A DNA stretch of 64,000 nt, taken from NCBI RefSeq assembly GCF_011393335.1, contig NZ_CP049865.1:2684722-2748721 (forward strand). Reading direction: 5' to 3'. Below, piece after piece: positions 22,095 to 63,674 of the stretch. Under the pieces are notes generated by a model, which worked only from the letters and a program-made list of their open reading frames with translations, was not told the origin of the DNA and did not search any database. The stretch is from Propioniciclava coleopterorum (GTDB lineage: Bacteria > Actinomycetota > Actinomycetes > Propionibacteriales > Propionibacteriaceae). The translations under genes and the position numbers were made by a program. How positions within the stretch are numbered: the stretch's first letter is position 1; each line of letters begins with the position of its first letter.

Positions 22095-23021
22095 ATGCAC
22101 CCAACTCGGACGAGCGCGCCGACGCCGACCGCGCCCGGCCTGAAGGGCACGCTGCTGGCCTACATCGGCCTCACCAAGCCCCGCATCATCGAACTCCTGC
22201 TGGTCACCACGTTTCCGGCGATGTTCCTCGCCGCGCGCGGTTTCCCGTCGCTGGCCCTGGCGACCGTCACCTTCATCGGCGGCACGCTGTCGGCGGCGTC
22301 GGCGAACGTCTTCAACTCGGTGCTGGACGCCGACATCGACGAGCAGATGCGGCGCACGCGTCGGCGTCCGATGGTGCGCGACCAGGTGTCGAAGGGCGCC
22401 GCCTACGCGTTCGGGGTGGTGTTGGGCATCGCCTCGGTGCTGATGCTCGGCTTCGGCGCCAACTGGCTGTCCGCCGGCCTGTCGGTCGCCGCGATCCTGT
22501 ACTACGTCTTCATCTACACCGTGTGGCTCAAGCGCCGCACCCCGATGAACATCGTGTGGGGTGGCGTCGCGGGCTGCTTCCCGCCCCTGATCGGCTGGAC
22601 GGCCGTCACCGGCTCGATCGCCTGGCCGCCGCTGATCCTGTTCCTGATCGTGTTCTTCTGGACGCCGCCGCACACCTGGGCGCTCGGCCTGCGCTACCGC
22701 GAGGACTACGCGGGCGTCGACGTCCCGATGCTCCCCGTGGTCCGCGAGGCGCCCTACGTGGCCCGGCAGATCCTCCTGTACTCGGTGCTCACCGTCGCCA
22801 CCAGCATGGTGCTGTGGCCGGTGGCGCACACCGGGTGGCTGTACCCCGCGGTGGCCGCGGCCTGCGGCGTCGTGCTGATCTGGGAGTCGATCGCGCTCCT
22901 GCGCCGCGCCGACGCCGGCCTGCAGGACGCCAAGCTCGCGCCCATGCGGCTGTTCCACTGGTCCAACAGCTACCTGGCGATCGTCTTCATCGCCGCCGCG
23001 GTGGACGCGCTGTTCTTCTGA
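22095..23021 (+). CDS. ctaB: Protoheme IX farnesyltransferase (heme O synthase)
   Basis: CtaB adds a farnesyl group to heme b, the first step to heme A for cytochrome oxidase. The 308-residue polytopic membrane protein has the prenyl-diphosphate sites [20 protein letters not shown] near residue 70 and [12 protein letters not shown] near residue 205. About eight hydrophobic helices are seen. Its start ATG 22095 is preceded by GGAGG. A TAAACT hexamer near 22032 is a possible -10, leaving a leader of about 55 bases. The partner heme A synthase gene ctaA faces it across the repeat island. Confidence 0.95.
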
Positions 23022-23170: not shown

Positions 23171-23201
23171 TCGGTTGCCCGCCACGCCTGCCGTTCCAGT
23201 C

Positions 23202-23240
23202 GCCCCCGTTTGCGCCAGCCGCCCGCGCAGGAACGGGGGC
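23202..23240. repeat. Hairpin module 1 of the repeat island
   Basis: A 39-base inverted repeat: outer arms GCCCCCGTT and AACGGGGGC, inner arms TGCGC and GCGCA. The inner pair differs from modules 2-4 by a matched change on both sides. Confidence 0.8.
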
Positions 23241-23550
23241 ACCTGGGCTCAGCGGGGGCGTTTGGTTTCAAGCGGGGGCGGTTGGACGCGAGCGGGGGCG
23301 TCTGGTCGCGAACGGGGGCGTCTGGTCGCGAACGGGGGCGTCTGGTCGCGAGCGGGGGCGTCTGGTCGTGAACGGGTGCGTCTGGTCGCGAACCGGGGCA
23401 ACTGGCCGCGAACCAGGGCAATTGGTCGTGGGCGGGGGCGGCGGCTTGGCGACGGCGGGGGCTGCTTGGCGACGGCGGGGGCGGCGATGGCAGCGGCCGT
23501 GTTGCTGGGGTCCTGGTGTTCTCGCTCCCGCGGTCTGGGCTGTTGCAGTT

Positions 23551-23589
23551 GCCCCCGTTTGCGTCAGACGCCCACGCAGGAACGGGGGC
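23551..23589. repeat. Hairpin module 2 of the repeat island
   Basis: Outer arms GCCCCCGTT/AACGGGGGC and inner arms TGCGT/ACGCA, the same geometry as module 1. Confidence 0.8.
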
Positions 23590-23834
23590 GTCTGGCGCAA
23601 CCGGGGGCGACTGGTCGCAAGCGCGGGCGTTTGGTCGCGAACGGGGGCGTTGGTCGTAATCGGGGGCGTCTGGTCGCGAACGGGGCGTCTGGTCGCGAAC
23701 CGGGGCAACTGGTCGCGAACGGGAGCGTTTGGTCGTGAGCGGGGGCCGCTTGGCGACGGCGGGGGCGGCGATGGCAGCGGGCGTGTTGCTGGAGTCCTGG
23801 TGTTCTCGCTCCCGCGGTCTGGGCTGTTGCAGTT

Positions 23835-23873
23835 GCCCCCGCTTGCGTCAGACGCCCACGCAGGAACGGGGGC
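23835..23873. repeat. Hairpin module 3 of the repeat island
   Basis: The same layout with inner arms TGCGT/ACGCA. One outer-arm base is changed (GCCCCCGCT), giving a single mismatch. Confidence 0.75.
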
Positions 23874-24059
23874 GTCTGGCCCAACCGGGGGCGACCGGTC
23901 GCAGCGCGGGCGTTTGGTCGCGAACGGGGGCGTCTGTCGCGAACGGGGGCGTTGGGGCGAAGGCGCGGGCGGTGGCGACTGGCAAGGTGCGGTGGGTGGC
24001 TGCGGGTGTGTCGTTGGAGTCCTGCTGTTCTCGCTTCCGCGGTCTGGGCTGTTGCAGTT

Positions 24060-24098
24060 GCCCCCGTTTGCGTCAGACGCCCACGCAGGAACGGGGGC
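24060..24098. repeat. Hairpin module 4 of the repeat island
   Basis: Outer arms GCCCCCGTT/AACGGGGGC and inner arms TGCGT/ACGCA are fully paired. Confidence 0.8.
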
Positions 24099-24289
24099 GT
24101 CTGGCGTAAGCGGGGGCGACTGGTTGCGAGCGGGGGCGTTTGGTTGCGAGCGGGGGCGGTTGGTTGCGACCGGGGGCGGTTCGTCGCGAGCGGGGGCGTT
24201 TGGTCGTAAGCGGGGGCGGTTCGTCGCAAGCGGGGGCGTCTGGCGCAAGCGGGATGTCCGGCGTGTGTGGGCGAGCGCGGGGATGGGGG

Positions 24290-24390
24290 ACGCGCGAAGC
24301 GGCGTCGGAAGCGCGAAGCGGCGTCGGACGCGCGGGATGCGTCGGACGCGCGGGGTCGCGTCGGACGCGCGGAGTCGCGTCGGACGAAAG
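24290..24390. repeat. Third minisatellite family, units of 17-19 bp
   Basis: About five units resembling GCGTCGGACGCGCGGGGTC follow one another between the 20-bp island and the end of ctaA. They are unrelated in core sequence to the two families to the left. Confidence 0.65.
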
Positions 24391-24395
24391 GGCGC

Positions 24396-24416
24396 CCCGG
24401 GGCTCGATGCCCCGGG
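24396..24416 (-). terminator. Hairpin terminator after ctaA
   Basis: An 8-bp perfect stem CCCGGGGC/GCCCCGGG with loop TCGAT lies 28 bases beyond the ctaA stop on the minus strand. Confidence 0.6.
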
Positions 24417-24443
24417 CCTCGATGCGCCGGGCCTCGGCGGGTG

Positions 24444-25355
24444 TCAGGACGCGTGCAGGTGGACGTCGCGGGCGGGGCGGTACCACGCGGGGGCGTCCGG
24501 GACGGTGCGGAAGTACAGGTGGCCCAACGCGGCGGCGAACAGCGTGGTGCCGACCATGTGGGCGAACACCATGCCCATCGGCAGGTGCGTGAAGTACTGG
24601 ACGTACCCGATGACGCCCTGCAGCAGGATCACCGCCAGCAGGCCCAGCCACAGGCGACGGGCGCGCGGCTGCGCCCAGGCCCACCACAGTCCCAGCAGCG
24701 TCAGCGCGACGATCGCCCAGACGGCCCAGGCGTGGATCTTGGCGGTCCACTCGGCGGACAGGCCGTTGCGCTGGGCGGCGCCGTCGCCGGCGTGCGGGCC
24801 GGCGCCGGTCACCACGACGCCGAGCGCCACGACGACCATGCCGAGCCAGAACACGACCGTCGTGAGCGTGACGAGTCGGTTCGGGACCGGCACGGGACGC
24901 AGGCCGTAGGCGTCGCGGACCAGCACCACGCACATCAGGATCAGCGCCATCGACACCACCATGTGCAGGCCGACGACCCACGGGTTGAGCTGCATCAGCA
25001 CCGACACCCCGCCGATGACGGCCTGGGCGATGATGCCGAGGCCGACGCCGAACGCGAGGACGGGCATCCGCTCGGTGACCGCGCCGGCCTTCCACGCCCG
25101 GTAGGCGGTGATGAACATCCCCAGGGCGATCGCGGCGAGCACGAAGGTCAGCGTCCGGTTGCCGAACTCGATGAGGCCGTGCAGGCCGTCCTCGGGGCGG
25201 GGGACGTACGAGCCGGGCTGGCACTGCGGCCAGGTGGCGCAGCCCAGCCCCGACTTGGTGAGCCGGACCAGCGCGCCGGTCCAGACGATCGCCATGTTGG
25301 CCACCAGGGACGCCACGGCCCAGCGGCGCAGCCAGGTGAGGTTCAACTGGTCCAT
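24444..25355 (-). CDS. ctaA: Heme A synthase (CtaA/COX15)
   Basis: CtaA oxidises the heme O methyl group to make heme A. The 303-residue polytopic protein has about eight helices. The N-terminal loop SGLGCATWPQC carries the cysteine pair seen in Gram-positive CtaA, followed by EFGNRTLTF (usually EYxHR; here Gly-Asn replaces the first heme-ligand His region). Later histidines are at VVGLHMVVSM, AKIHAWAVWA and VFAHMVG. The start ATG 25355 overlaps the end of the ABC permease gene by 13 bases, so it is the last gene of an ABC ATPase-permease-ctaA unit. The exporter may serve heme or cytochrome assembly, but that is inference from position. Confidence 0.92.
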   Translation of the reverse strand: MDQLNLTWLRRWAVASLVANMAIVWTGALVRLTKSGLGCATWPQCQPGSYVPRPEDGLHGLIEFGNRTLTFVLAAIALGMFITAYRAWKAGAVTERMPVLAFGVGLGIIAQAVIGGVSVLMQLNPWVVGLHMVVSMALILMCVVLVRDAYGLRPVPVPNRLVTLTTVVFWLGMVVVALGVVVTGAGPHAGDGAAQRNGLSAEWTAKIHAWAVWAIVALTLLGLWWAWAQPRARRLWLGLLAVILLQGVIGYVQYFTHLPMGMVFAHMVGTTLFAAALGHLYFRTVPDAPAWYRPARDVHLHAS

Positions 25356-63240: not shown

Positions 63241-63359
63241 AACCACGCCGCTGCGTGCACTGCGAGGGGTCTGTGCGCGGATCGCGCTCAGCACGTCGGA
63301 GTCCGTGGCTCCGGAGCGCTCGCCCGGCGCCGCTGCTCAGTCTGCCGCTGGCTCGACCC

Positions 63360-63510
63360 GCCGCGCTCTCGGCCGAGTCGCCCCTGCTTGGGACGAGTCG
63401 CCCCGGCTTGGGACCTGTCGCCCCCGCTTGGGACCTGTCGCCCCCGCTTGGGACGAGTCGCCCGCGTTGGATGCAGGCGCCCCCGTAGGAAAGGGGGCAT
63501 CTGGCACGAA
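63360..63510. repeat. Second 20-bp repeat array with hairpin
   Basis: About five units at 20-base spacing, such as TCGCCCCCGCTTGGGACCTG, run from about 63377 to 63476. They end in GCCCCCGTAGGAAAGGGGGC and ATCTGGC, which recalls the hairpin and unit of the 23-24 kb island in reverse order. No gene is seen from 63241 to the window end. Confidence 0.7.
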
Positions 63511-63674
63511 AGGGGGCGACTGTGCGGGCGTGGCGTCACTATCGCCACGATGCGTGGTGCGGAGCCAGGCACTCGACGCGGGTCTCGGCATGGGGCCTCC
63601 GGAATCCGCGGCGCATCCGATTGACCGGGTGAGTCCGTGTCGTTCTGGTGCCTCGACTTCGATGCGCCGTTCGA

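Follow-up and report, generated by a model that had tools for sequence, protein, structure and literature searches.

A dispersed family of hairpins and 20-bp units in Propioniciclava coleopterorum and its probable tie to an AbiEi-like/nuclease-like gene

Of the enzymes linked to dispersed palindromes in bacteria, the best studied are the transposases associated with repetitive extragenic palindromic (REP) elements, the RAYTs. Streptococcal BOX elements and enterobacterial bacterial interspersed mosaic elements (BIMEs) are likewise dispersed and intergenic and carry an internal module in variable copy number, as do the repeats described here, and we know of no link between BOX or BIME and the genes considered below, which encode proteins with an AbiEi-like and a Vsr-like part (AbiEi-Vsr). 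REP elements are 20- to 40-bp palindromes that bear a GTAG or CGTC tag on one of their ends, and a large group of them reportedly has no dedicated transposase (both from an excerpt of PMC3733652), while AbiEi binds 23-bp inverted repeats (excerpt of PMC7319586). Here we describe a repeat island in a 64,000-nucleotide window (positions 2684722 to 2748721) of the single 3671901-bp contig of P. coleopterorum, where direct 20-bp units and long hairpins fill the convergent ctaB/ctaA gap as four modules, each a hairpin followed by units. The island is probably a non-autonomous member of a repeat family that is dispersed over the genome and tied to an AbiEi-Vsr gene, which would spread the repeats.

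On our analysis, such a system is built like REP-RAYT and may work like it. The likenesses are twofold: (i) the gene lies between two matched repeats, copies are dispersed, the repeats vary with the gene, and gene and repeat similarity are correlated (for the RAYT side, excerpt of PMC2817692), and (ii) according to home-made gene calls, the elements lie between genes, either after the end of a gene or in a convergent gap. The differences lie in the enzyme, which is AbiEi plus Vsr/EDxHD-like here and HUH (Y1, PF01797) in RAYTs, and in the repeats, which consist here of two units of about 19 bp per arm or of long arrays of about 20 bp. The elements here measure about 56 to 70 nt or more. A RAYT origin was rejected, as PF01797 had no matches in the genome itself or in all 13 genus genomes, and in genus g23, where PF01797 is present, no GCCCCCG palindrome was found among eight PF01797 loci inspected. 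PROP2 carries PF01797 genes, and one of the two loci examined (L186) has another palindrome, of 35 to 37 nt, on either side and is likely an ordinary REP-RAYT unit. The system is not a REP-RAYT member, given an enzyme of unrelated type, the lack of PF01797 in the genome and genus, and a separate, different palindrome at one of the two RAYT-type loci examined in PROP2.

The 3.67-Mb genome holds at least 39 elements of this hairpin and 20-bp-unit family, all of them between called genes. They were read from the matches of a model built from 41 hairpins, and the count is a minimum because 150 of 5660 hairpin candidates were scored. The sequence-only reading had allowed for a one-off slippage product if the unit proved absent elsewhere in the genome, and the dispersed copies dispose of that idea. 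With element boundaries set manually from printed arrays and genes called by a home-made codon model, 18 of the 39 elements lie in convergent gaps, compared with 23 of 172 background gaps (Fisher p = 1.8e-5), and 5 of the 39 in divergent gaps, compared with 46 of 172 (p = 0.10). The summed element length is 17879 bp, and the unit profile covers 581 units, in which positions 6 to 9 (GGGC) are best kept (95 to 99%) and positions 2, 5, 11, 18 and 20 vary. Neighboring array units differ by 1787 substitutions versus 27 length changes, whereas 36 pairs of duplicated linkers (two further pairs, too unlike, were skipped) show 263 substitutions versus 110 gap events, a contrast that is only indicative because the linker pairs overlap and the unit finder is biased toward intact units. 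Most elements have upstream flanks unrelated to those of the others, bar a few pairs, which places the start of the element at the hairpin. In one such pair, L041 and L067, 406 bp of upstream flank are held in common at 81% identity. That slippage in GC-rich gaps merely produced unrelated arrays, as neutral noise, is very improbable: the ctaB-ctaA gap does hold other tandem repeats (24288-24436), but the 39 elements share a hairpin, a unit and a start point amid mostly unrelated upstream flanks, unit length is strongly conserved, and the existence of a dispersed family already contradicts it.

Elements point in both directions (19 plus, 20 minus), and the largest gap between elements is unremarkable, being reached or exceeded by 9002 of 10000 random sets; with the origin position not located, neither observation supports the suggested replication-related role. 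The tip of the hairpin is seen either way round (GTTCCTGCGTGGG and CCCACGCAGGAAC, opposite in orientation), which looks like an inversion inside the hairpin; L051 and L053 are an example. Paired arrays at 2748-2749 kb (L049) enclose inverted repeats of about 100 bp, and a second repeat family may be involved there and in the shared flank of L041 and L067. A conserved RNA element was also considered and is not argued for: Rfam gave only sub-threshold microRNA-like matches, and hairpin covariation was mixed, with 8 pairs showing two-sided changes versus 8.7 in shuffles, 43 cells versus 33.2 (11 of 500 shuffles were as high) and 82.0% versus 80.5% paired. The remaining candidates were set aside on other grounds: (i) for a coding array, open reading frames run through the array, but a 20-bp unit, by reasoning, cycles all frames; (ii) for a phage or plasmid origin, there were no matches in viral_contigs, plasmids or phages, and PHROGs gave no families for the two gene products submitted; (iii) for a CRISPR array, the units are contiguous and have no unique spacers; and (iv) for plasmid-type iterons, there are at least 39 chromosomal elements and not one array, with the island of the window lying between ctaB and ctaA.

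Outside the window, at 489 kb, two neighboring elements with inverted arrays enclose the AbiEi-Vsr gene, the only copy found in this genome; intervals drawn at random were enclosed by two elements in this way in 10 of 200000 draws. Its product, of 309 to 333 amino acids, has an N-terminal winged helix, an AbiEi-like middle domain and a C-terminal third with the predicted fold of Vsr and homing endonucleases of the EDxHD type, in which acidic residues are invariant and may act in catalysis. The winged helix and middle domain liken it to the AbiEi antitoxins of type IV toxin-antitoxin systems (AbiEi, 6Y8Q; Rv2827c, 1ZEL), from which it differs by the added C-terminal nuclease-like domain and by matched repeats on both sides with genome-wide copies. 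It differs from AbiE toxin-antitoxin pairs also in that no AbiEii nucleotidyltransferase toxin is adjacent to it, the two neighbors tested at its own locus being Peptidase_S51 and GtrA. To I-Bth0305I and Vsr it is likened by the predicted fold and putative acidic active-site residues; unlike them, it combines its nuclease-like domain with an AbiEi-like part and has repeats as its partner. The members of the gene family that we scanned were recognized only as AbiEi-like.

The same arrangement, the gene between two matched palindromes, recurs in G009, G147, G140 and others. A search of 13 family-level genomes, hand-picked and partly chosen for their hairpins, gave 42 gene matches in 12 of them; from a first listing of 30 loci, 29 entered a first flank test (L206 was dropped, having no flank), and L204 was moved to a second, in which 700-bp instead of 500-bp flanks were compared. 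In the first test, 24 of 28 loci, our own included, had a repeat common to both sides at E <= 1e-6, and 21 of 25 did so once the three loci that had prompted the idea (our own, G009 and G147) were left out; among the other 13 loci the count was 4. At the class level the gene was found in 108 of 148 genomes (E <= 1e-20), and 25 of 29 top-match loci, our own excluded, had matched flanking repeats. Random intervals matched in 1 of 108 cases in G001 and G007 and in 4 of 200 in G260 and G209, and comparisons of flanks between genomes matched in 22 of 756 and 32 of 812, part of which is expected from related repeats. Long palindromes stood on both sides at 11 of 29 family-level loci, besides our own arrays. 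Taken together, sequence comparison gives good support both to the repeat family and to a class-wide pairing of gene and repeat.

The main rival is an operator role, in which the AbiEi-like protein would repress its own gene through the flanking repeats, the arrays being a regulon or a means of titration spread by rare recombination. It draws on the AbiEi-like N-terminal part of the protein and on AbiEi antitoxins binding inverted repeats in their promoters (excerpt of PMC7319586). Yet the matched repeats stand on both sides of the gene and not just before it, the preferred convergent gaps are places where promoters are unexpected, and the origin of 39 copies is left unexplained, so that we regard this account as unlikely. 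What favors a mobilizer or homing-like role instead is that the repeats stand on both sides of the gene, are dispersed and lie where genes end.

The flanking repeats also have a spacing in common, although their letters differ between gene loci. Among 44 loci (49 with matched flanks minus L220, L224, L226, L236 and L244), 29 had a clear internal direct repeat, spaced by 19 bp in 17 and by 20 bp in 10, whereas shuffles gave an internal direct repeat at any spacing in 7.2 of 44. In a second test of spacing and orientation, on 48 of the 49 loci (minus L236), the 19- or 20-bp spacing was seen, with the four array loci removed, in 15 of 20 family-level and 10 of 24 class-level loci (0.25 and 0.15 in shuffles). 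That test found the flank repeats inverted in 19 of 24 class-level versus 8 of 24 family-level loci, though direction means little for palindromes. The gene also has arrays of about 20 to 22 bp next to it in G004, G018 and G003, and in G003 the unit flanking the gene is found beside ctaB as well. In G018 the array next to the gene is followed by 34 bases that are nearly all C (L213, 2628-2661). The protein-binding role suggested from the sequence alone is plausible, since unit length is conserved and unrelated repeats next to the associated gene show the 19/20-bp spacing again.

Copies at a distance from the gene were sought in 400-kb samples whose choice took no account of repeats. The repeat flanking the genome's own gene occurred three times in G260 (two of them 99 bp apart) and twice each in G209 and G007, and the G260 and G209 copies could flank gene copies at unlisted positions; three repeats from genomes outside the sample had no matches in these stretches. 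In PROP2, where loci were fetched by pattern, the gene-flank repeat was found at 15 places, none of them beside the six gene loci fetched. G009 has one repeat place away from the gene, the listed copies in G147 are the gene's own flanks only, and G001, which lacks the gene, had none of the tested repeats in 315 kb.

Comparison with relatives bears on whether the elements are instead 3'-end devices of the host (bidirectional terminators, mRNA stabilizers or topological buffers), their arrays having lengthened by slippage and the linked gene being incidental. In line with this, the hairpin folds are stable, all 39 elements lie between called genes with the convergent enrichment given above, and in PROP2 all 12 hairpins examined overlap no called gene, the 10 with both neighbors called lying within 117 bp of a stop codon. 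In the genus, however, the hairpin model matched only 2 of 13 genomes at E <= 1e-6 (our own and G009), and the repeat is absent from the ctaB-ctaA gap of all 6 of the 12 other members in which ctaA follows ctaB, where the match ends lie about 12 to 73 bp apart (the stretch examined in the remaining 6 did not have ctaA next to ctaB). Since such devices also leave unexplained why repeats differ with each gene copy, we consider this account improbable, if somewhat less so than neutral noise. In the family-level set the model matched 7 of 198 genomes at the same threshold, our own and G009 included, in a first look with 25 candidates scored per genome and stricter filters than in the search of our own genome. 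Three further element gaps could be compared with the relatives' samples, and no such repeat was visible in the three relatives' gaps inspected: the gap at 100 kb measures 1348 bp here and 111 bp in G007, that at 198 kb 812 bp and 309 bp in G007, and that at 2476 kb 889 bp here, 604 bp in G001 and 1766 bp in G007. Model matches in relatives were mostly palindromes on a like plan, two units per arm with different letters, and G018 has arrays on both arms. A two-unit pattern had no matches in genome_contigs, a set from which our own genome was possibly excluded; a looser hairpin pattern retrieved 30 stretches there, with two-sided palindromes, by eye, only in PROP2 and S3R_St_70 contigs and a chance-like remainder.

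Several observations weigh against a repeat-spreading gene. The similarity of proteins and that of their repeats are correlated (n = 22, r = 0.55, permutation p = 0.0002), which may partly reflect shared descent because the repeats of related genomes match one another, a G003 repeat, for example, at four places in G007. Matched flanks were not detectable at 4 of 28 first-test family-level loci, 9 of the 13 tested second (two of them poorly testable) and 4 of 29 class-level loci, and strict long palindromes stood on both sides at 3, on one side at 6 and on neither at 20 of the 29 class-level loci. Moreover, loci within a genome are not independent, the random intervals were not centered on genes, and flank repeats could also be operators. 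The boundaries of the compared gaps could not be aligned, and neither a target-site duplication nor an exact empty site was delimited. Finally, G004 has a nearly perfect 56-nt palindrome at about 40 places (80 strand-wise matches), also after ctaB, that is absent beside the four gene copies fetched from it; in the other genus genomes it had no match, bar a weak partial one in G008.

Within the island, all features of which are read on the plus strand, hairpin 1 (23197..23268) comprises two C-rich anti-units, a tip, the first 19-bp unit and the start of the array. Each module hairpin, of about 66 to 70 nt, is built in this way, its left arm being two anti-units and its right arm the 19-bp unit and the first 20-bp unit. 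Since the left arm is part of the element, the element starts at 23197 and not, as first read, at 23231. Array run 1 (23232..23430) has 10 scored units of the AACGGGGGCGTCTGGTCGCG type in register, with one 19-bp step followed by eight exact 20-bp steps; the exact 20-bp tandem of the sequence-only reading is confirmed, with 10 units on this scoring where that reading counted eleven. The array resumes, as had been noted, after each of three further hairpins: hairpin 2 (23546..23617; folded as DNA, -35.2 kcal/mol, z = -8.1 against shuffles) with run 2 (23581..23737), hairpin 3 (23830..23901) with run 3 (23865..23961), and hairpin 4 (24055..24126; -33.2 kcal/mol, z = -7.2) with run 4 (24090..24248; spacing 19 bp, then six steps of 20 bp), the second and fourth being the ones folded. 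The island totals 29 scored units, and the AACGGGGGCGTCTGGTCGCG-type pattern with up to three mismatches has 14 matches in the window versus a shuffle mean of 0.06. The linker before hairpin 2 (23463..23545) repeats the local flank, and over its last 60 bp it shares 97% identity with the linker of hairpin 3 and 85% with that of hairpin 4; because these three linker ends are 85 to 97% alike, whole modules were duplicated locally. Tandem Repeats Finder reports larger periods, one of 284 bp, in addition to period 20.

The surroundings agree with the convergent intergenic gap first described: ctaB (heme o synthase, 22095..23021, plus strand) upstream faces ctaA (24444..25355, minus strand), whose product Pfam assigned to COX15-CtaA and NCBIfam to no family. 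The remainder of the gap, at 24288-24436, carries two other tandem repeats, one of 19 bp of the GGACGCGCGAAGCCGCGTC type and one of 15 bp, which by eye are unrelated to the 20-bp unit. A second element of the family lies in the window at 63359..63526 on the minus strand, with a hairpin and five scored units. Two structural suggestions made from the sequence alone fared less well. Placement of the units on the same DNA face is approximate only, as 20 bp make 1.90 turns at 10.5 bp per turn and drift by about 34 degrees per unit, and G-quadruplexes find no support: neither strand of 23231-24260 has a canonical G3+N1-7 motif, and about one unit in three, with weighting by locus, has a C at position 5. 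The earlier interpretation is thus borne out in part.

A mechanism for the spread of the repeats by the AbiEi-Vsr protein can be proposed in four steps: (i) its N-terminal winged helix would bind the 19/20-bp units; (ii) the nuclease domain would nick or cut at or near the hairpin; (iii) repair or replication would then copy the repeat into new intergenic sites, often at gene ends; and (iv) in this species, arrays would have arisen from one arm through repeated breakage and slippage. All of binding, cleavage and mobility is inferred, and for binding this is reasonable because AbiEi proteins bind inverted repeats (excerpt of PMC7319586). A broader and more tentative proposal, which we hold at a little under an even chance, is that AbiEi-Vsr fusions are widespread actinobacterial repeat-mobilizing enzymes, unrelated to HUH transposases, each recognizing its own 19/20-bp double-unit repeat, sitting between two such repeats and seeding them across the intergenic DNA of its host, with long phased arrays in some lineages.

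Among the publications listed in our searches (titles and abstract openings, in one case for 15 of 485 matches, mostly of non-subscription literature, so that an earlier description is possible), none linked AbiEi or Vsr-like proteins to dispersed repeats. The gene-repeat pairs in other actinobacteria point to an unrecognized repeat-spreading system, and a second, unrelated enzyme with its own repeats would suggest, if true, that repeat-spreading evolved more than once. While the pairing of gene and repeat is a matter of sequence, the proposed mechanism is testable, and our results name the protein, the binding unit and the expected spacing with which to test it.
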